From Fusobacterium sp. JB019 (GTDB lineage: Bacteria > Fusobacteriota > Fusobacteriia > Fusobacteriales > Fusobacteriaceae), in assembly GCA_030673965.1 (NCBI GenBank), contig JAUTCN010000002.1, forward strand, positions 372,001-436,000: a stretch of 64,000 bases of DNA. Reading direction: 5' to 3'. A model generated the notes under the pieces. The model was not told the origin of the DNA, ran no database searches, and worked only from the letters and a program-made list of their open reading frames with translations. Numbering within the stretch: position 1 is the stretch's first letter; every line of letters begins with the position of its first letter. Shown one piece after another: positions 28,372 through 64,000 of this stretch. The translations under genes were made by a program, and so were the position numbers.

Positions 28372-28403
28372 AAAAAAAATCGTCCCAAAAAACTGGGACG
28401 ATT
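28372..28403 (-). terminator. T-box-controlled terminator of the trp operon
   Basis: A perfect 9-bp minus-strand stem AATCGTCCC/GGGACGATT is followed by eight T, 27 bases before trpE. The rising arm adjoins the T-box sequence, as required for the alternative antiterminator. Confidence 0.92.
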
Positions 28404-28672
28404 AACTCGCTATGCCACCCATAAGTTATTATAAAAAAAACGTCTATAAAAAGACGTAATAATAACCATAATAGTTTTTAATACGGAATTTTCTAATTCG
28501 ATATCTTATCTCTGTAACGGGAGAACCCGGCTGCAGCTACTATATTTCACCTCGCTCCTCATAGATCCATTCATCATCAACATTTGTACCGTCCTTTCCA
28601 CCAACCGACGACTCGCTAAAACAAACAATTTAATGATTACTACTTCTAATCATTGGATTTCTTTATTTAATT
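28404..28672 (-). ncRNA. T-box leader (tRNA-Trp sensing) of trpEGDCFBA
   Basis: The minus-strand T-box core GGGTGGCATAGCGAG (about 28406-28420) has the TGGC bulge complementary to a GCCA acceptor end, fitting the G73 discriminator of bacterial tRNA-Trp. In stem I the specifier region reads GAATGGATC, with codon UGG (28567-28569) followed by the conserved A. Further upstream TTTAGCGAGTCGTCGGTTGG belongs to the distal part of stem I. Uncharged tRNA-Trp should stabilise the antiterminator and turn on the operon. Confidence 0.92.
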
Positions 28673-28782: not shown

Positions 28783-29601
28783 TTATTCGTTTTCATCGGC
28801 ATATTTTACAAGAGCTCTAAAGAAAACTATAAACTCTTCATCTCCATCATGAACATGCCATTCTGGATGGAATTGTAGAGCTTCTACAAAAGTTGCACCT
28901 TTATATTCTACAGCTTCAATAATTCCATCTGGAGCTGTTGCTACAACTTCTAGATTTTTCCCTAAATCTTTTATACATTGATGATGCCAAGAATTAACTG
29001 TTATATCTTCTGGTCCCATAATAGCACTTAAGTGAGTTCCTCTTTTTATATTAATTTTATGATATACAAAATTTTCTTTTCTAGGATCTCTATGAACTAT
29101 ATTTGTTTTGTATTGTGTTGGAATATCTTGATATAATGTTCCACCACATACTACGTTTAACATTTGTAATCCACGACAAGTTGCTAACATAGGCATATCA
29201 TCTTTTAATGCTGCTGTTATCATCCAGAAATCAGAAGTATCTCTAGCTGAATTTGTTTTTTCTAGGTTTCTATGAGGTTTTTCCCCGTAATAAGAAGGGT
29301 TAACATCCTCTCCTCCTGTCATAATTAATCCATCTACAGTTGCTAAAGCAGCTTTAGCTTCTTCTTCTCCAGTAACTTTTGGTAATACAACTGCTATACC
29401 TCCAGCTTTTTCAACACCATCTATATACACTTGAAGACTTTCTGAATAGTCCTCATTTTTAAAATCTTTTCTCCAAGCAATACCTATTTTTGGCTTATCT
29501 TTTTTGTTTCTTATGGAAAAATTATTACAACCTACACAAAGAACTGCAAAAAGCATAATAACAAGGTTTAACATCAAAGTCTTAAATTTAATTCTTTTCA
29601 T
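28783..29601 (-). CDS. Lipoprotein class I glutamine amidotransferase-like hydrolase (peptidase C26, PuuD-like)
   Basis: 272 residues. The N-terminus has a lipoprotein-type signal with Cys25 (FAVLCVGC). The C26 hydrolase domain follows: nucleophile Cys142 in LATCRGLQMLNV, oxyanion segment LIMTGGEDVNPSYYGE, and the catalytic His/Glu in LQFHPEWH. PuuD-type enzymes hydrolyse gamma-glutamyl-GABA; homologues act on other gamma-glutamyl amides. An exported, lipid-anchored version is unusual because most are cytoplasmic. Its promoter is nearly identical to those of the three methionine-rich repeat genes nearby, suggesting one regulon. Confidence 0.85.
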   Translation of the reverse strand: MKRIKFKTLMLNLVIMLFAVLCVGCNNFSIRNKKDKPKIGIAWRKDFKNEDYSESLQVYIDGVEKAGGIAVVLPKVTGEEEAKAALATVDGLIMTGGEDVNPSYYGEKPHRNLEKTNSARDTSDFWMITAALKDDMPMLATCRGLQMLNVVCGGTLYQDIPTQYKTNIVHRDPRKENFVYHKINIKRGTHLSAIMGPEDITVNSWHHQCIKDLGKNLEVVATAPDGIIEAVEYKGATFVEALQFHPEWHVHDGDEEFIVFFRALVKYADENE

Positions 29602-29748: not shown

Positions 29749-29773
29749 AAAAAAACACCCCTCAGGGTGTTTT
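29749..29773 (-). terminator. Terminator of the 101-aa Met-rich lipoprotein gene
   Basis: The stem AAAACACCC/GGGTGTTTT with a 4-base loop is followed by seven T on the minus strand. Confidence 0.85.
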
Positions 29774-29805: not shown

Positions 29806-30111
29806 TTAATATCCAACTTTATAAACTTTTCCATCTTTCATCATTATTTCACACATTTGACCATCCCTATTTATCATCATTTTTCCATCTTTCATCATTA
29901 CTTTATGCATCATTCCATCTTTGTCTTTAACTAACATCATCTGACCATCTTTCATCATCATTTGATTGTCTTCTACCATCATCATTTTCCCGCTTTTATC
30001 TCTCATCATCATTGTTCCTAATTCTTCTTTTTTATTGTTATACATATTAGAACAACCAACTAGAAGAAAAGCTGCAAATATACCCAAACCTAACATTTTA
30101 AATTTTTTCAT
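29806..30111 (-). CDS. Methionine-rich MMxxDG-repeat lipoprotein (101 aa)
   Basis: 101 residues. A lipoprotein signal (FAAFLLVGC, lipobox Cys20) precedes a mature part made of short tandem units like DGKMMM, DGQMM and DKDGMMHKVMM, rich in Met with alternating Asp/Gly/Lys and few other residue types. It is a paralogue of the proteins at 32.2-32.8 and 33.0-33.5 kb. The Met and His clusters suggest binding of soft metals such as Cu(I) or Ag(I), or a methionine-oxidation sink, but neither is shown. Promoter and terminator are its own. No named family recognised. Confidence 0.75.
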   Translation of the reverse strand: MKKFKMLGLGIFAAFLLVGCSNMYNNKKEELGTMMMRDKSGKMMMVEDNQMMMKDGQMMLVKDKDGMMHKVMMKDGKMMINRDGQMCEIMMKDGKVYKVGY

Positions 30112-30154
30112 ATTTCGCCTCCAATTAAAACAGATATTAATTAATAATTAAACG

Positions 30155-30211
30155 GAGTGTAATGTTAACGCTCTTCACCTCGAGTATATAACTAGTATAA
30201 TGTTTTGTCAA
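30155..30211 (-). promoter_or_regulatory. Shared-type promoter B with downstream dyad (101-aa Met-rich gene)
   Basis: TTGACA (30206-30211), a 17-base spacer and TATACT (30183-30188). The imperfect dyad GAGCGT/ACACTC (30155-30173) lies at about +3 to +21 and could be an operator or a 5'-terminal mRNA hairpin. Confidence 0.8.
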
Positions 30212-30229
30212 ATGACTTCTAAATGTTTT

Positions 30230-30883
30230 TTATATTCTTTCTATTATTGTTTCTTTTGCTAATCTTGATTTAGGTAATTTAGCATTAAAGTCATCTTCTG
30301 AATGATACCCTATAGATACAACTACACACGAAGTAAATCCTTTTTCTCTTAATTTAAATTCTTCGTCTAATACGTTAAAATCAAAACCTTCCATAGGAAT
30401 AGCATCCAAACCTAAAATAGCTACTCCTAACAAAAATTGCCCTAAATTTAAAAACACTTGTTTTTCTGCCCAATGTTCTATATCTTTAAGCTCATATCTA
30501 TGTTTATTCACAAAAAAACTTCTCCCTGAATGTTGATCTAACTTTATTTGTTTTTCTGAAAATCTTCCATCTTTATCTTCTTTTTCTAAAACTTCTAGCA
30601 AATACTTTTCATCTACATCATGCCTTCCACAAAATACAACTACTGCACTTGCATCTAAAACTTTTTCTTCATTAAATTTATAAAAACCTGCTGCTGATTT
30701 TGCAATTTTTTCTTTTCCTTCTTTAGTTGAAGCTAATATAAAATGCCATGGTTGTGCATTAGTAGAAGAAGGTGATAATTGCAATAAATTTTCTACCATT
30801 TCTATTTGTTCTTTTGATAATTCCTTATTTGGAATAAATTTCTTAGTAGAAAATCTTTTGTTTAAAATATTTAATAGTTCCAT
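30230..30883 (-). CDS. NfsB-like nitroreductase (FMN-dependent NAD(P)H oxidoreductase)
   Basis: 217 residues of the nitroreductase fold. The N-terminal NKRFSTKKFIPNKELS and LQLSPSSTNAQPWHFILAS bind FMN, and the central GRHDVDEKYL and C-terminal GLDAIPMEGFDF match the NfsB/FRase I group. It reduces nitroaromatics, quinones or flavins with NAD(P)H in the cytoplasm. Its promoter region carries a striking set of GTTGTAAC/GTTACAAC inverted repeats. The adjacent upstream Rrf2-type regulator is a candidate controller. AAAGGAG lies seven bases before the ATG. Confidence 0.9.
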   Translation of the reverse strand: MELLNILNKRFSTKKFIPNKELSKEQIEMVENLLQLSPSSTNAQPWHFILASTKEGKEKIAKSAAGFYKFNEEKVLDASAVVVFCGRHDVDEKYLLEVLEKEDKDGRFSEKQIKLDQHSGRSFFVNKHRYELKDIEHWAEKQVFLNLGQFLLGVAILGLDAIPMEGFDFNVLDEEFKLREKGFTSCVVVSIGYHSEDDFNAKLPKSRLAKETIIERI

Positions 30884-30921
30884 ATATTTCTCCTTTTAGT
30901 TAATAAAAAATAAAAAATACC

Positions 30922-30986
30922 AGTTGTAACTTTTCTTGTTACATCAGTGTACCACACAAGAGTTGTAATGTCAATTGTTACAACTC
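30922..30986 (-). promoter_or_regulatory. Nitroreductase promoter with paired GTTGTAAC operators
   Basis: Minus-strand TTGACA (30969-30974), a 17-base spacer and TACACT (30946-30951). A perfect 9-bp inverted repeat GAGTTGTAA/TTACAACTC (30960-30986) encloses the -35. A second pair TGTAAC/GTTACA lies at 30925-30943, downstream of the -10. Such double dyads over a promoter indicate a dimeric repressor; the Rrf2 protein encoded next door is the candidate. Confidence 0.75.
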
Positions 30987-30996
30987 AAAAAAATAT

Positions 30997-31025
30997 AAAA
31001 AAAATGCAGATATCAATCCGCATTC
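30997..31025 (-). terminator. Terminator of the Rrf2 gene
   Basis: A minus-strand stem AATGCGGAT/ATCTGCATT (one G-U pair) with a 4-base loop is followed by eight T. Confidence 0.75.
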
Positions 31026-31026
31026 T

Positions 31027-31452
31027 TTATATATATTGTTTTGTCTCATCAAATAACATTTGTAAAGTTTTACTTTTCATCTTATCGGTCATCGCTTCTT
31101 GAATTTCATTTAAATGAGAATCAAGAATTGTATGAATATTTTTACCCAATGGACAATCGCAATTAGGGTTCATGTGAAAATTAAAAAAATTTTCTTCAAC
31201 TGCTTGAATTGCATTAAATATATCTAGTAAAGTTATATCTGATAAATCTTTTTTTATTTTCGTTCCTCCAACTCCTGCTTTAACCTCAACTAAACCTGCT
31301 TCTTTTAATTGACCTATTAATCTTCTTATTATTACAGGATTAACATTTGTACTCCCTGCAATAAAATTAGATGTTACTTTTCTATCCTTTGAAAATGCTG
31401 CTATACACAGCATAGTTTGTATTGCTATTGTAAATCTTGATGTTATTTTCAT
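31027..31452 (-). CDS. Rrf2-family transcriptional regulator (YwnA-like)
   Basis: 141 residues from the ATG at 31452, seven bases after GGAGG; a longer in-frame start lacks such a site. The winged HTH (about 1-80) contains SRFTIAIQTMLCIA and GSTNVNPVIIRRLIGQLKEAGLVEVKAGVGG, typical of Rrf2. The C-terminal part carries a short NCDCPLG cysteine motif, unlike the CX5-6CX5-7C triad of IscR, so it is more like YwnA/CymR-type members that sense thiols or redox state. Located upstream of the nitroreductase and likely regulating it. Confidence 0.85.
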   Translation of the reverse strand: MKITSRFTIAIQTMLCIAAFSKDRKVTSNFIAGSTNVNPVIIRRLIGQLKEAGLVEVKAGVGGTKIKKDLSDITLLDIFNAIQAVEENFFNFHMNPNCDCPLGKNIHTILDSHLNEIQEAMTDKMKSKTLQMLFDETKQYI

Positions 31453-31535
31453 ATATATTCCTCCCATAACTAATGTTATCAGACACAATATATAATGTCA
31501 AGTTTAAGACTTCTATCTTAATAATCAATTTAATT

Positions 31536-32021
31536 TTACACTTCTTTTTTATTAGCTGCTCTTTCTCTTAAAAAATATTCATCTACATCCAATAAAAATT
31601 TAATTATAGTCTCAATTTCTTTTTCACCATATTTATCTAAAAGTTCTTTAATTTTATCATATATATCCGAGTGATAAACTTCATGACTATCAAAGGCTTT
31701 TTTCCCTTTTTCAGATAACACTAACACTATTTCTTTTTTATTAACTGGATTATTTTCTTTAATTATATATCCTTTTTTATGCATCTTATTTACAAATTTA
31801 GATGCAGCCGCTTTAGAAATTTCCATAAAATTTGATAATTCTGTTAAATTTACCCCTTTGTTAACTCCTATATAATAAATTGTATGTATTTCACTAGAAA
31901 ACAATTCCTCCCCTGTACCAAACTCTCTAGGAATCTTAGATGCTGCAACTGCCTTCCCATGAACTTTCATAAATAAATCAGTAATAACTTTCTCTTTTCT
32001 TTCTTTACTCAATTGGCTCAT
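31536..32021 (-). CDS. MarR-family transcriptional regulator
   Basis: 161 residues. The MarR winged HTH shows IHTIYYIGVNKGVNLTELSNFMEISKAAASKFVNKMHKKGYI (about 45-90), followed by the wing NKKEIVLVLSEKGKKAF. N- and C-terminal helices form the dimer interface. It should repress target promoters until a phenolic or oxidative signal binds; the target is not evident. It sits between the Rrf2 gene and the Met-rich gene, so it could control the shared Met-rich promoters, but this is speculative. GGGGG precedes the ATG. Confidence 0.88.
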   Translation of the reverse strand: MSQLSKERKEKVITDLFMKVHGKAVAASKIPREFGTGEELFSSEIHTIYYIGVNKGVNLTELSNFMEISKAAASKFVNKMHKKGYIIKENNPVNKKEIVLVLSEKGKKAFDSHEVYHSDIYDKIKELLDKYGEKEIETIIKFLLDVDEYFLRERAANKKEV

Positions 32022-32126
32022 CTCTTCCCCCTACTTTATATAAAATACATTTCGTTTACTTTCTTAAGTTGTTTAATCCTAACCCTTACTAACTATAAAG
32101 TCAAGTTTTTTTTGTTTTAAAACAAC

Positions 32127-32156
32127 AAAAAAAAGCATCATAGGATGCTTTTTTTT
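32127..32156. terminator. Bidirectional-looking terminator after the 201-aa Met-rich gene
   Basis: The stem AAAAAAGCATC/GATGCTTTTTT with loop ATAG is flanked by A- and T-runs on both sides; on the minus strand it follows the gene at 32179-32784. Confidence 0.85.
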
Positions 32157-32178
32157 ATTATCAATATTATCTCTTATT

Positions 32179-32784
32179 TTATTTCATTACTTTATACATA
32201 TGACCATCTTCACCACGTATCATCATATACATTTTTCCATCTTCGCCTCTCATCATCATTTGACCATCTTTAGTTTTTATTGGTTTAACTTTTCCATCTC
32301 TACCTTGCATCATCATCTTACCATCTTGTTCTTCTAACTTATAAATATTCCCATGTCTATCCTGCATCATTCTATGCATTCTTCCATCTTTATCCTGCAT
32401 TAACATTTGACCATTTTTACTCTTCATCATATACATATGACCGTCTCTACCTTGCATCATCATTTGACCTTCTTGCTTCATCATTTTGTACATTCTTCCG
32501 TCTTGTTCTTGCATCATCATATGCATTCTTCCATCTTTATCTTGCATCATCATTTGACCATTTTTATTTTTTAACATGTGCATATGCCCATCTCTATCTT
32601 GCATCATCATATGCCCATCTTGTTTCATCATTCTATACATTGTTCCATCTTTACTATCCTGCATCATCATCTTACCATCTTGTTTCATTACTTTATATTG
32701 AGAATGTGATTGGGCAAAACTAGCAGAACACAAAGCTACAAAAACACCTAACATTAAAATTTTAAAATTCAATTTTCTTTCCAT
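32179..32784 (-). CDS. Exported methionine-rich MMxxDG-repeat protein (201 aa)
   Basis: 201 residues. A signal peptide (LMLGVFVALCSASFAQ) ends in A-x-A-like SFA. The mature protein is almost entirely about 20-residue repeats of the form DGxMYxMMKQDGxMMMQDxDG. I count about 46 Met in 201 residues, with Met triplets alternating with Asp-Gly turns and scattered His (HMHML). There is no Cys in the mature part. The regular spacing suggests a beta-rich, solenoid-like fold. Related to 101- and 177-residue proteins alongside. Metal binding or oxidant scavenging in the periplasm are possible roles; I know no characterised homologue. The DNA is itself repetitive (CATCATCATTTGACCAT blocks), so copy number may vary. 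Confidence 0.78.
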   Translation of the reverse strand: MERKLNFKILMLGVFVALCSASFAQSHSQYKVMKQDGKMMMQDSKDGTMYRMMKQDGHMMMQDRDGHMHMLKNKNGQMMMQDKDGRMHMMMQEQDGRMYKMMKQEGQMMMQGRDGHMYMMKSKNGQMLMQDKDGRMHRMMQDRHGNIYKLEEQDGKMMMQGRDGKVKPIKTKDGQMMMRGEDGKMYMMIRGEDGHMYKVMK

Positions 32785-32823
32785 AGTTTATAACCTCCAC
32801 TTTAAATAAATAATGATTAAATA

Positions 32824-32880
32824 GAGCGTAATATTAACACTCCTTACTTCGAGTATATAACTAGTATAAAGCTTTGTCAA
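32824..32880 (-). promoter_or_regulatory. Shared-type promoter C with downstream dyad (201-aa Met-rich gene)
   Basis: TTGACA (32875-32880), a 17-base spacer and TATACT (32852-32857). The dyad GAGTGT/ACGCTC (32824-32842) follows at the transcript start. The spacer shares TTATACTAGTTA with promoter B. Confidence 0.82.
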
Positions 32881-32903
32881 ATAACTTATCTTTGTTTTTT
32901 AAA

Positions 32904-32939
32904 TAAAAAAACAAAGAAAGCACCCTTATGGGCGCTTTC
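32904..32939 (-). terminator. Terminator of the 177-aa Met-rich gene
   Basis: A minus-strand 10-bp stem GAAAGCGCCC/GGGTGCTTTC (one G-U pair) with loop ATAA is followed by a T-rich run. Confidence 0.85.
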
Positions 32940-32977
32940 AACATTTTGTTAATTACTATCTAATTTTAAATTATTAA

Positions 32978-33511
32978 TTAATAACCTTTTTTCATCATTT
33001 TTTTACCTTTTCTTTTTGCCATTTCATTTGCTTCATCTTTCATGTTTTCTTGCATTTGTTTATTGTTTCCTCTTATAACTTCATATATTTTACCATCTTT
33101 TTCAGCCATTTCATACATTTTTCCATCTTTATCTTGTATCATCATTTTTCCATCATCGCTCATCATTTTATGCATTTTACCTTTTTTATCTCTCATCATC
33201 ATTTGACCATTTTGCTCTATCAAAATCATATGTCCATCTTTTTCGATTTTTTCATACATTCTACCATTTCTTTCAACTAGCTGATACATTTTCCCATTTT
33301 TGTCTTGTATCATCATTTTTCCGTCTTCTATCATCATTTTATGCATTTGGCCTTTTTTATCTTGCATCATCATTTGGCCTTCTTGTTTAACCATAACATA
33401 AGCTTCACTATCTTTATATTTTGGTTTTGCTTGAGCTCCTAACCCAACAGAAAACATAGCTACAAAAACACCTAACATCAAAATCTTAAAATTATATCCT
33501 TTTTTATCCAT
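32978..33511 (-). CDS. Exported methionine-rich MMxxDG-repeat protein (177 aa)
   Basis: 177 residues from the ATG at 33511, six bases after GGAGG. The signal peptide (ILMLGVFVAMFSVGLGAQA) is close in sequence to that of the 201-residue paralogue. Repeats such as QMMMQDKKGQMHKMM, DGKMMIQDKNGKMYQLV and GQMMMRDKKGKMHKMM follow, so here the unit is a mixed Met/Lys/Asp pattern. The last 35 residues are a lysine-rich helical tail ending KKMMKKGY. About 30 Met. It has its own promoter of the shared type and its own terminator, so the three family members are independent transcription units. Confidence 0.78.
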   Translation of the reverse strand: MDKKGYNFKILMLGVFVAMFSVGLGAQAKPKYKDSEAYVMVKQEGQMMMQDKKGQMHKMMIEDGKMMIQDKNGKMYQLVERNGRMYEKIEKDGHMILIEQNGQMMMRDKKGKMHKMMSDDGKMMIQDKDGKMYEMAEKDGKIYEVIRGNNKQMQENMKDEANEMAKRKGKKMMKKGY

Positions 33512-33563
33512 CGGCAACCTCCAACTTTAAAATAGATAGCAACTAACCTTTTTTAATTAGGGT

Positions 33564-33618
33564 GAGCGTCCAATAACACTCTTAACTTGAGTATATAACC
33601 ACTTTTCTCCTTTGTCAA
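33564..33618 (-). promoter_or_regulatory. Shared-type promoter D with downstream dyad (177-aa Met-rich gene)
   Basis: TTGACA (33613-33618), a 17-base spacer and TATACT (33590-33595). CAAGTTAAGAGTGTTA and the dyad GAGTGT/ACGCTC (33564-33581) follow directly. Confidence 0.82.
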
Positions 33619-35714: not shown

Positions 35715-36194
35715 TTAATCTAAATCTTCTAAAGTATAATTTTTATTATCTCCTTTTTCACTATAAGCTTCATGATATGATGGCCATTTTTCTAAAGCTG
35801 TTCTCAACTCTTTTTCTCCAAAAGCTATATGAAGAGAAAGAGCTTTATCTATCATAATAGGGCATCTTTCCTCATCTATTTTATCTTTACCATTTAAATT
35901 AACTGCTATAATAGGAAGATCCGCATCAATTGCCAACTGAATTTCATATTTAATATATTTGTGTAGATATTTCGTCTTTTCCCCAATTAAAACAACCAAA
36001 ACTTTTGCATCAATCATTTTTTTGCTTACCATTCTTTCCATTTCTTCTGCATCTTCAGAACAACTTTCATCAGAATAACAAGCATCATAAAAATTAAAAT
36101 CAAAATTATCATTTTCGTTCCATGTTTGCATTAATTCATACATAGGTATATCCTCTGCGTCAAAACAAACATATGTTTTATTTCTACCTTCCAT
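35715..36194 (-). CDS. TIR-like (ThsB/MTH538-type) domain protein
   Basis: 159 residues from the ATG at 36194, eight bases after GGAGG; an upstream in-frame extension would run through the promoter. The fold pattern of the MTH538/ThsB TIR-like family is clear: TYVCFDAEDIPMYELMQTW, FDFNFYDACYSDES, VSKKMIDAKVLVVLIGEKTKY, then YIKYEIQLAIDADLPIIAVNLNG. ThsB proteins make a cyclic ADP-ribose-type signal in Thoeris phage defence. Here no ThsA-like effector is adjacent; neighbours are a MATE-like gene and GlpQ. The acidic tail (residues about 140-159) is extra. It could be an orphan defence sensor or serve another nucleotide-related role. Confidence 0.8.
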   Translation of the reverse strand: MEGRNKTYVCFDAEDIPMYELMQTWNENDNFDFNFYDACYSDESCSEDAEEMERMVSKKMIDAKVLVVLIGEKTKYLHKYIKYEIQLAIDADLPIIAVNLNGKDKIDEERCPIMIDKALSLHIAFGEKELRTALEKWPSYHEAYSEKGDNKNYTLEDLD

Positions 36195-36231
36195 ATCTAT
36201 TTCCTCCTTTATTAAATATTGATATAATTTT

Positions 36232-60272: not shown

Positions 60273-63200
60273 TTATCTTTCCATCAATTTTTTGCTAATA
60301 ATACGTGTTGAGCCAAATTGATTTTTAAACATAATATCCCATAACTCCATACATTTACATGCTATCTCTTCTCTAGTTCCCTTAGACTCATCATAAAGCC
60401 TCGCAACCAAATTCGAAATTTCGTTATTCATCATATAATCATCATCTTTTTTCATAACTTTATCTCTACACAATTCTAAAATAATATTTGAAAATTCTAA
60501 TATTGATTTTAAAGTATTTTTTAAATATTCAACAAACAAATAAATTGTTCTATAATCTAACTTTGTTTTAAATAATCTTATTATAAATTTAGAATCCTCT
60601 TCTAGATCAACAACTCCATTTAAAAATATTTTATGGAGAAATTTATTAATATCTTTTCCCAACTCTAAAAAGTTATATACTATCTCTTTTATTTTTTTCT
60701 TATATTCTTTTTTATCAAAATAATTTGCTGCCATCTCTAAAATATAATCACTTTGTTTTTCACTCATATCTTTTAAACTTTCATTAAAAATTTCAGAAAA
60801 TTTTTCTTCGCATAAACTCATCTCTATAACACTATATGAACCTATTCTTAAAAGATCTTCGTCTTTTGAATTATAGCATTTTGAAATTATCTCTGTTATT
60901 CTTTCCTTATAATTATTATACATATTAAAAAATAATTTTCTTGATTCTCTAAAACTAGCATATCTTATATCCTCTTTAAATAATAAAACAAACTTATCAT
61001 ATGCCCATTCTTTGTCTATATTACAAACTGGAAAAAGACTTTCCATTGTTGCATATTTAACTTCAATATTTTTATCTTCTAATAACTTTTCTATGGTTGA
61101 CTTAAACACTTCATACAAAACCTTATTTCCCCATAATAAAACACCTATAGTTATTGCCGCTTCTCCTCTGCAACAGTTCCTTGAATTATCTAATATCATA
61201 TTGCAACTTGACATATCTTTATCATCAGAAGTAGTTACATTTATTTTCCCAAATTCTGGATCTTTATGATTTATCGCTATATTTTTTATTTGCTCTATTA
61301 CTTTATTTGACCAAATAATTTCTTTCTTCTTTTGAATTATAGTTAGAAAATTTCTTGCTCTTCCAGATTCCATATTACATGGAAATTTAATCATAAGTTC
61401 TTCCAAAATTTCTTTTGATAAATTTTCTAATTCAGATGAAAAGGCTACTCCATAAAATAAAGAATCAATAAAAACATCATCAATTTCTTCTTTGCTTTTT
61501 AAAACCATTTCTATTATCTTTTTAGAATCTTTTTTCACAGCTTCTGTAAAATCACTAGCAATCTGTTCTATTGAATTATCTATAAAGAAATCTTTTCTTT
61601 CTCTAATTCTGTACCTACTCTTTTCTTTTATTTTTTGACTTTTTATAATTTTCAACCATCTTTTTGCAGATAAAGCTTTTCCTGATAATGAAGACTTAAT
61701 AGCTGTAAAGCCACCATCTTCCCTATAGTAACTAGATATTCTTTCTGGATATTTTCTATTCAATACCTTTATCAAAGCTTTTCCTTCATTACTCAATCTT
61801 TTATAAGAAAGATGTGGCAACAATTCTTTTTGCAACAATCCCCAGAAATTCCACCCTGTTAATTCTTTTTTATTTTTCTTTTCCTTTGTTTTTCTTTTAT
61901 ATATTTCAATATCAAAACGATCTATATATTTTATAATCATTGTTTCTAGTTTTTTGAAATTTAAATCACTACAATATTCAGAATATTTACTTATAACCCT
62001 TTTGATTAGTCTCAAAGTATCTGAATTACCACTTGTCTCATCTACTATAAAATCTGAGTTGAAATTATTAATAATTATTTCTACAACTTTATCACTAAAA
62101 TTTTCAGGTATATAAAATAATCCATGTAATATAATTTCATTAAAAATATTATAATTTTTTCCTAAATATTCTTGATAATATTCAAAAAAATATTTAGGTG
62201 AACTCTTAATTAGTGAAATATTAGCTTTTTTTATAATTTCAACACAAATACGATTAATATTTTTTCTATTATGTCTATTCCTCCATTCAAAAAAAGCATT
62301 TTCTTTTGGAATATATTTCACTAATTTTTCTAGTACAAACTTTCCATCTTTTATCTCTATATTCTCTAGAGAATCTAAACATTTATCTTCATACCTATAT
62401 TCACTTCCTAAATTAACTTTACAATTCATCCAATATGATAATATTTTTATTGCCCTTTCTTCTTTTTTAAAAAATAAGCCTTTATCTATATAGACTATTT
62501 TTAAAAAATCAGAATCATACTCATAAAATTTTTCTCTTAATTCAAACATTTTATCAGTATCTTCAGATGGATAAGGAGATAAACATCTATAAAATTCCTT
62601 GCTGTCCTCTTTATTTTCAAATGCATGCTTAGAAATAAAATCAATATACTCTTCATCGTAATCTCTAGAAATACTATAAAGTAATTTAAACACTGTCTCT
62701 TTTTTAGAACTATCTCCAATCCATTTATCTAAAATTTTATTTTTTATTAAAACATTTATATATTTTTTATTTCCAGAAATAACATCTTTTAATATATAGT
62801 TTTCTATACTTTTATTTTCACAATTTTCTAAAATATATTTTTCTATAATGTAATTTGGATTTTTAATCTGATTTAAAAGTTCATAAAATAAAAATTTAAT
62901 ATAAAATCTAATGCTTTCAGATTCAAGCATCTTTTTTCCTATCTCTAAAAATTCTCTTTGATTATCTTCCAAAATATTTTGTAAAAGCATTTGCATTTGA
63001 TATCGCCTATTTGGTGTTTGTCTAGTTTTGCCTCCTATAATATTTTCAATATCTATTCCATTATCATAATCATCTAGCATATTTTTATAAATAAAATAAT
63101 CTAAAATTGATTGATGGACAAAAGAAATTTTATCATTTTTACTTACAACTAACATCCCATTTGAAACCAAAAGGTTTAAAACACTTTGGTTTGTATCCAA

Positions 63201-64000
63201 CCTTCTCTTAGAAATTTCTGAATATCCTTTTTCATCAAATTTTTCTGATATTTTTTTTATTTCTCCTCTTATTAATTCTTCTCCTATTTGACAAGAAGAA
63301 CCTTTTTTTATAATTTCTTCAAACCATCCATACATTAATTTACTAGTAGTTGAATAATCAGTATTTTCTTTTTTTAGATCAAATTGTTGCCATATGTACA
63401 AATTACTAGGTATACTTAATACTTTTTTTGTTTTCAATGATAATTTATTATAGCTACTCGTTCCCATAATATTTTTCAAAATTTCTTCTTTCAGTTCTTT
63501 TATTTCAATTTTTTTCCAACAATTATCATTTAAGTTAAAAAGCTTGTTTATTCCAGTATCTTTTTCTAAATCATAAGTTCTACATACAAAAATTAATATT
63601 ATTTTATGTTCTCTTTTTTTATTTATATTATTTAATTCTATAATAAATTCTTTACAAACTCTTAAAGACTCACTTGAATTAGCTTTCGTCCATCTAAAAG
63701 CATCTAATTGATCTAATATTACAATTCCTTTTTTGTCTTTCATTATTTTATCAGCACAATAAGATATTGGCCCTTCCAGTGATAACTCCTCTCCCCAATA
63801 AAATATATTTTTTTTAGGTATATATTTATCTAATTTTATTGCGACATAAGGTATCTCCTTTTTCTCACAATAATCTATTATTTCATAAGTACATCCACTT
63901 TTCCCAAACCCAGCTCTACCATGAATTATTATTGAGTTTTCTTTTTCTATCTCTTCTATACATTTTTGTGTTTCTTCTCTCTTAATAAAACCATCCTTCA
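60273..64000 (-). CDS. Large STAND/NACHT-like P-loop NTPase with helical-repeat C-terminus (N-terminus beyond window)
   Basis: At least 1241 codons; the frame continues to the right edge with no start in view (the first ATG, at 63743, lies after the P-loop and is not the start). The visible N-terminal part has Walker A GRAGFGKSG, about 50 bases-worth of codons from the edge, and Walker B GIVILDQLDAF. IILIFVCRTYDLEKD resembles the sensor-1 strand with Arg, and ISFVHQSILDYFIYKNML is the winged-helix-like segment closing a STAND module. The remaining 900 or so residues are Lys/Ile/Glu/Asn-rich helical repeats, HEAT- or TPR-like. This architecture is shared with Avs-type antiphage NTPases, which carry an N-terminal effector; that part is outside the window. 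Confidence 0.78.
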   Translation of the reverse strand, partial: KDGFIKREETQKCIEEIEKENSIIIHGRAGFGKSGCTYEIIDYCEKKEIPYVAIKLDKYIPKKNIFYWGEELSLEGPISYCADKIMKDKKGIVILDQLDAFRWTKANSSESLRVCKEFIIELNNINKKREHKIILIFVCRTYDLEKDTGINKLFNLNDNCWKKIEIKELKEEILKNIMGTSSYNKLSLKTKKVLSIPSNLYIWQQFDLKKENTDYSTTSKLMYGWFEEIIKKGSSCQIGEELIRGEIKKISEKFDEKGYSEISKRRLDTNQSVLNLLVSNGMLVVSKNDKISFVHQSILDYFIYKNMLDDYDNGIDIENIIGGKTRQTPNRRYQMQMLLQNILEDNQREFLEIGKKMLESESIRFYIKFLFYELLNQIKNPNYIIEKYILENCENKSIENYILKDVISGNKKYINVLIKNKILDKWIGDSSKKETVFKLLYSISRDYDEEYIDFISKHAFENKEDSKEFYRCLSPYPSEDTDKMFELREKFYEYDSDFLKIVYIDKGLFFKKEERAIKILSYWMNCKVNLGSEYRYEDKCLDSLENIEIKDGKFVLEKLVKYIPKENAFFEWRNRHNRKNINRICVEIIKKANISLIKSSPKYFFEYYQEYLGKNYNIFNEIILHGLFYIPENFSDKVVEIIINNFNSDFIVDETSGNSDTLRLIKRVISKYSEYCSDLNFKKLETMIIKYIDRFDIEIYKRKTKEKKNKKELTGWNFWGLLQKELLPHLSYKRLSNEGKALIKVLNRKYPERISSYYREDGGFTAIKSSLSGKALSAKRWLKIIKSQKIKEKSRYRIRERKDFFIDNSIEQIASDFTEAVKKDSKKIIEMVLKSKEEIDDVFIDSLFYGVAFSSELENLSKEILEELMIKFPCNMESGRARNFLTIIQKKKEIIWSNKVIEQIKNIAINHKDPEFGKINVTTSDDKDMSSCNMILDNSRNCCRGEAAITIGVLLWGNKVLYEVFKSTIEKLLEDKNIEVKYATMESLFPVCNIDKEWAYDKFVLLFKEDIRYASFRESRKLFFNMYNNYKERITEIISKCYNSKDEDLLRIGSYSVIEMSLCEEKFSEIFNESLKDMSEKQSDYILEMAANYFDKKEYKKKIKEIVYNFLELGKDINKFLHKIFLNGVVDLEEDSKFIIRLFKTKLDYRTIYLFVEYLKNTLKSILEFSNIILELCRDKVMKKDDDYMMNNEISNLVARLYDESKGTREEIACKCMELWDIMFKNQFGSTRIISKKLMER

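Follow-up and report, generated by a model that had tools for sequence, protein, structure and literature searches.

The window analysed here, a 64-kb stretch of the Fusobacterium sp. JB019 genome, carries on its minus strand three paralogous genes for methionine-rich proteins. Gene A (29806–30111) encodes a Met-rich lipoprotein of 101 amino acids with 23 Met and the lipobox LVGC. Gene B (32179–32784; 201 amino acids, 46 Met) and gene C (32978–33511; 177 amino acids, 30 Met) each encode a Met-rich repeat protein with a signal peptide. The lengths, strand and coordinates of these paralogues, and the count of 46 Met among the 201 residues of the largest, are as an earlier note on this DNA had given them, with an alternative upstream TTG start for C possible at 33517. 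The Met content of the three proteins (22.8% in A, 22.9% in B and 16.9% in C) ranks as the top three among the 62 ATG-started ORFs of at least 100 amino acids in the window, for which the next value is 5.0% and the median 2.5%. Gene B encodes 16 [D/N/E]G turns, and the C protein ends in a basic tail that is predicted to be helical. Read by eye, the lipobox of A is LVGC followed by SNM, and the putative signal peptides of B and C end in Ala-X-Ala-like sites. All three proteins therefore look exported, one as a lipoprotein and two through signal peptides, in agreement with the mixed export modes described previously.

The interval 29806–33511 also holds three unrelated genes, for a nitroreductase (NfsB-like), an Rrf2 regulator and a MarR regulator, which sit between A, B and C. 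Together with a C26 peptidase gene and trp genes they make up the local neighbourhood. The C26 peptidase (gamma-glutamyl hydrolase-like; 28783–29601, minus strand) has a lipoprotein signal and a consensus promoter. Elsewhere in the window, a ThsB-type TIR-like protein (35715–36200, minus strand; PF08937, 53 bits; PADLOC ThsB1, E=6e-49) is a possible Thoeris component. A 1,156-residue protein (60273–63743, minus strand) resembles by eye the C-terminal part of a STAND-like ATPase, with no match in Pfam or PADLOC.

Transcription units with a common promoter block

Genes A, B and C are separate, stand-alone transcription units, and the sigma-70 promoter of each is close to consensus. Of the four best sigma-70-like sites between 28700 and 34300 (TTGACA-17-TATACT, 11/12), three lie directly 5′ of these genes and one lies 5′ of the neighbouring gene for the C26-peptidase lipoprotein. 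The promoter block of A (30143–30211, minus strand) consists of TTGACA-17-TATACT and a conserved downstream GAGCGTTAACATTACACTC; the block of B (32812–32880, minus strand) has the same element, and that of C (33551–33618, minus strand) has it with two 1-base deletions. This block of ∼69 bp, which starts at the −35 box and takes in a GAGYGTTA...ACRCTC-like dyad, is common to the three genes and to an orthologue of A in another species (see below), and the nitroreductase, Rrf2 and MarR genes lack it. A scan for intrinsic terminators identified one after A (29752–29773, minus strand; AAAACACCCTGAGGGGTGTTTT followed by a T run) and one after C (32916–32939, minus strand), and a terminator-like AAAAGCATCCTATGATGCTTTTTTTT after B (32121–32155, minus strand), absent from the scan's list, was recognized by eye. 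That the genes have consensus promoters and terminators of their own suggests that they are strongly expressed.

A leader RNA hairpin or riboswitch was considered and rejected. The dyad that follows the −10 box can fold in two of the genes (B and C), fails to do so in A and in the orthologue, and gave no strong z-score; it is therefore taken as a possible DNA element. An Rfam search of the surroundings returned nothing except the trp T-box leader (28391–28662, minus strand; RF00230, 95.5 bits), which lies 5′ of a trpE-led tryptophan operon. A wider regulon in the genus was likewise rejected: a model of the promoter block scored strongly at the four known promoters only, and its next matches (E=0.02–0.8), which include the promoter of the C26 gene, are near chance level. 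The C26 promoter does resemble those of the Met-rich genes (E=0.08 with the same model). Control of the MerR type is not indicated, as all promoter spacers are 17 bp rather than 19–20 bp, and a link to hypochlorous acid through a likeness of the Rrf2 protein to HypR was discarded, its score of 49 bits falling short of the cut-off (180).

Strand repeats and predicted fold

The repeats of roughly 20 residues, with Met triplets and Asp-Gly turns, that the earlier note had pointed out are real: identity at a lag of 19 residues exceeds that of shuffled sequences in both B (z=8.3) and C (z=6.3). Higher-order internal duplications span 49 residues in B (z=14.9) and 57 residues in C (z=9.6), and A, the shortest of the three proteins, is less regular. 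When the sequences are cut after every turn of the type [D/N/E/K/S/H]G, the 19-residue repeat resolves into alternating strand units of 9 and 10 residues that close in Asp-Gly-type turns. The 9-residue unit is xMMMQDxDG (in its fuller pattern xMMMQ[D/G][K/R]DG) and the 10-residue unit is xM[Y/H]x[M/L/V/I]MxK[D/N]G (in its shorter form xM[YH]x[ML]MxKDG). Met occupies position 2 in 27 of the 29 units of 9–11 residues (11/11 of nine, 13/15 of ten and 3/3 of eleven residues), Met alternates with Tyr or His at position 3, and Ile, Leu or Val is tolerated at position 4 of the 9-residue and position 5 of the 10-residue unit. Because position 2 is near-invariant and positions 4 and 5 accept these other residues, some of the Met seem to be hydrophobic core residues, and others seem to have been selected specifically. 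A His with a nearby Met in the same strand (M-H-x-x-M) occurs in all four proteins, including the orthologue, and His is rare in A and C. At the DNA level, the motif ATGATGATGNNNGAYNNNVRNGGNNNNATG is present in 5 copies in the window and in none of 100 shuffles.

Searches of Pfam, NCBIfam and PHROG returned no family that fits all of A, B and C and no convincing assignment. A matches DUF6799 (PF20606) over 23 residues (E=0.058; 13.6 bits against a gathering cut-off of 26.8), a family with no match in B or C. Fascin (PF06268, a beta-trefoil) scores 30.2 bits with B against a cut-off of 23.1 and 13.2 bits with C, A not being listed, and the match, above the cut-off only in B, probably reflects the scoring of repeats against repeats. 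B also falls below the cut-offs of TIGR03300 (23.9 bits against 285) and PQQ_2 (11.5 against 27.6). A profile of the four family sequences matches the hairpins of BamB (1.2e-9), and C alone matches the designed propeller Cake10 (1e-12). As the reversed C sequence, used as a control, gives no match at all, this likeness is order-specific, and it supports antiparallel beta-hairpins rather than membership of the propellers. PQQ-like propellers such as BamB and Cake have a common DGxxxxxxxDGxxYxx hairpin pattern, which the DGxMMMQDxDGxMY unit resembles. However, the dominant lags of the Met-rich family (19, 49 and 57) are not a four-strand blade period, A and C are short for a propeller, Met replaces Val, Ile, Leu and Trp, and the scores lie under the family cut-offs. 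A relationship to same-genus MORN-variant lipoproteins (E=9e-4) was rejected, since the lipoprotein signal and the NG turns seem to account for it.

AlphaFold2 modelling, which the earlier note had proposed, gave all-beta hairpin ladders of low confidence for B (pLDDT 65, pTM 0.37) and C (pLDDT 53, pTM 0.34), with the strands falling exactly on the Met segments. Foldseek matches of these models are weak (TM∼0.2), comprising propellers, Rhs cores, the CPAP G-box and fascin (TM 0.15–0.19), with query TM-scores in the PDB of at most ∼0.25. The models thus suggest, with low confidence, an antiparallel beta-hairpin ladder, and a beta-solenoid, formerly put forward for these proteins, finds no specific support. 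An open ladder of this kind could be a structural or surface sheet that serves in scaffolding, adhesion or self-assembly, with Met merely an unbranched, flexible hydrophobic residue. The placement of the strands, the order-specific match to propeller hairpins and the replacement of Met by Leu, Ile or Val at strand positions 4 and 5 all favour such a sheet, as do the duplications, which amount to five and six strands and point to a sheet that can be extended, not to a closed propeller. Nevertheless, an A+T-rich genome predicts neutral hydrophobic strands rich in Ile, Phe and Leu rather than Met, the Met at unit position 2 is almost invariant, and the models and their structural matches are as weak as stated, so that we consider a purely structural role possible and yet somewhat doubtful.

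Distribution, selection and methionine sulfoxide repair

The genome of JB019 contains three family copies only. An orthologue of A with 80% amino acid identity is present in one of six congeners (G031) at a different locus, where it is flanked by carboxyltransferase (pxpC/kipA-like) and nadA/nadB-like genes. The whole unit from promoter to terminator (479 bp) is 84% identical in DNA sequence between the two species, and the similarity stops at the unit borders. None of the 96 further phylum genomes that were searched contains the family. A search for related loci gave nothing either, although low-complexity runs of Met may be masked in its tblastn step. Carriage by phages or plasmids was rejected as a means of spread, as tblastn found no match in their records and the 10 pattern hits on viral contigs are not relatives. 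A scan of ∼85,000 species genomes with an exact 30-bp motif contained in all four members returned the pattern in 94 genome stretches, the repeat in none of them and no relative. Together with the family searches, this bears out the earlier statement that no characterized family resembles these proteins. The best of the 94, a sphingomonad exported protein rich in Met and His (L074), was rejected as a distant relative, its E value of 0.004 applying within this small set. Three of the stretches (L050, L074 and L101) encode sphingomonad-type exported proteins with MMxDGKKMxGMMMKDxxGKMSCxMMDHSKMDHSKM, which are likely Cu-binding Met/His-rich proteins and analogous to the Met-rich family, homology not being implied.

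Between A and its orthologue dN is 0.106 and dS 0.361. The resulting dN/dS of ∼0.3 demonstrates that gene A is under purifying selection. Met columns are conserved in 22 of 24 cases and other columns in 58 of 76. In these searches the family is genus-restricted and lineage-specific, and it may be newly arisen. A separate observation concerns contig C5 of the JB019 assembly (204,898 bases), in which stretches mirrored about the centre (L174/L175 and L177/L183) are exact reverse complements. The contig appears to be an inverted dimer, probably an assembly artefact, which would inflate copy counts.

Neither carrier of the family, JB019 or G031, has a detectable MsrB (PF01641), MsrA (PF01625) or member of PF00174, the family that holds MsrP, in searches that had positive controls in other genomes. 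Methionine sulfoxide repair is patchy across the genus: an MsrAB fusion is present in three of seven species (G030, G032 and G033; loci L150–L155), all non-carriers, and absent from four. The fusion of G030, the one that was read, begins with a signal-peptide-like stretch. The Met-rich family is also missing from two further congeners without Msr, so the one does not simply substitute for the other. The absence of Msr enzymes argues strongly against an oxidant sink that is regenerated by a reductase, as in MrpX. Of the sacrificial oxidant shield that the earlier note had listed among candidate roles, the reversible form is accordingly weakened, and a one-way sink remains as a rival.

In such a one-way sink, surface Met would consume HOCl and H2O2 in the envelope and the oxidized protein would be discarded unrepaired. 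The high content of exported Met is as in MrpX and BcrX (PMC8315932), and a disposable shield could substitute for MsrAB, which the carriers lack. Against this, the carriers have none of the three enzyme families for recycling, the two other Msr-less congeners manage without the family, no msrPQ or ECF-sigma operon is linked to the genes, and the strict spacing of Met is unnecessary for a sink, all of which makes this explanation quite unlikely. MrpX and BcrX themselves repeat the pentapeptide MXKDX and occur in linkage with MsrPQ, with BcrX under an ECF sigma factor (PMC8315932, citing Melnyk 2015). They are exported, Met-rich and repetitive like A, B and C, which differ in having units of 9–10 residues with DG turns rather than MXKDX, no match to an NCBIfam model of that kind, no Msr enzyme in the carriers, and monocistronic genes with sigma-70-type promoters. 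Recycling by the MrpX mechanism, to which the likeness (small, exported, Met-rich) is superficial, is contradicted by the missing enzyme families and the different repeat and is very improbable.

A proposed role in soft-metal buffering

We propose that the proteins form an envelope buffer for Cu(I) and Ag(I) on a beta-hairpin scaffold. This reading ranks first, at a probability of roughly 0.35, ahead of the structural sheet and then the one-way oxidant sink. In this proposal, Met-Met-Met strands would pair with Met-[Tyr/His]-x-[Met/Leu]-Met strands through tight Asp-Gly turns, giving tandem beta-hairpins. One protein would be anchored to the membrane and two would be soluble in the envelope, where they would present dense, flexible thioethers and occasional His. 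Buffering of Cu(I) and Ag(I) would be of low affinity and high capacity, taking place before the metal reaches the cytoplasmic CsoR and CopA, and would be SilE-like on a different scaffold. SilE and PcoE act as a periplasmic ‘molecular sponge' for Ag and Cu, and SilE is disordered, becomes helical on binding Ag+ and uses the motifs MxxHx5HxxM and HxxMxxxHxxM (PMC5008109). The likeness lies in small, exported proteins with repeated Met and His motifs and a proposed high-capacity buffering of soft metals. By contrast, the repeat unit of A, B and C is not MxxH or HxxM, M-H-x-x-M occurring in some strands only; the units are strands of 9–10 residues with DG turns and few His, and there is no sil/cus-type operon and no Cu/Ag efflux gene beside them.

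Consistent with metal binding, Met occupies fixed unit positions rather than being spread, the Met columns of A and its orthologue are more conserved than the others, both lipoprotein and secreted forms exist, the Met-[His/Tyr] strands would suit Cu(I) or Ag(I), and the Msr-regenerated alternative is without its enzymes. The genome has a typical csoR-copA operon, and the organism therefore handles copper. However, this operon is on another contig than the Met-rich genes, the G/C-run palindrome found 5′ of csoR was not seen at their promoters, and CopA is present in all seven species of the genus and the Met-rich family in two. Metal binding is for these reasons chemically plausible and without genetic support. 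In addition, several Met are replaced by Leu, Ile or Val, as in a hydrophobic core rather than among ligands, and A, B and C match no metal-binding family in Pfam or NCBIfam.

To our knowledge, exported proteins rich in Met have been described in two roles, as Cu/Ag sponges and as oxidant sinks coupled to Msr. The A/B/C family is a lineage-restricted variant of this broad kind and has the genetic context of neither, yet purifying selection acts on proteins that keep Met at fixed strand positions, in organisms where no methionine sulfoxide reductase was detected. The most specific form of the soft-metal proposal, that a beta-hairpin scaffold has been rebuilt with Met into a continuous thioether face, a regular soft-metal-binding beta-sheet in the envelope, in hosts with no detectable methionine sulfoxide repair, is unlikely as it stands. 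If soft-metal binding is correct, the family would provide a regular beta-sheet thioether binder that would be useful for Ag and Cu biology and for protein design; if its role is structural, it would represent an unusual use of Met as a main residue of a beta-sheet.
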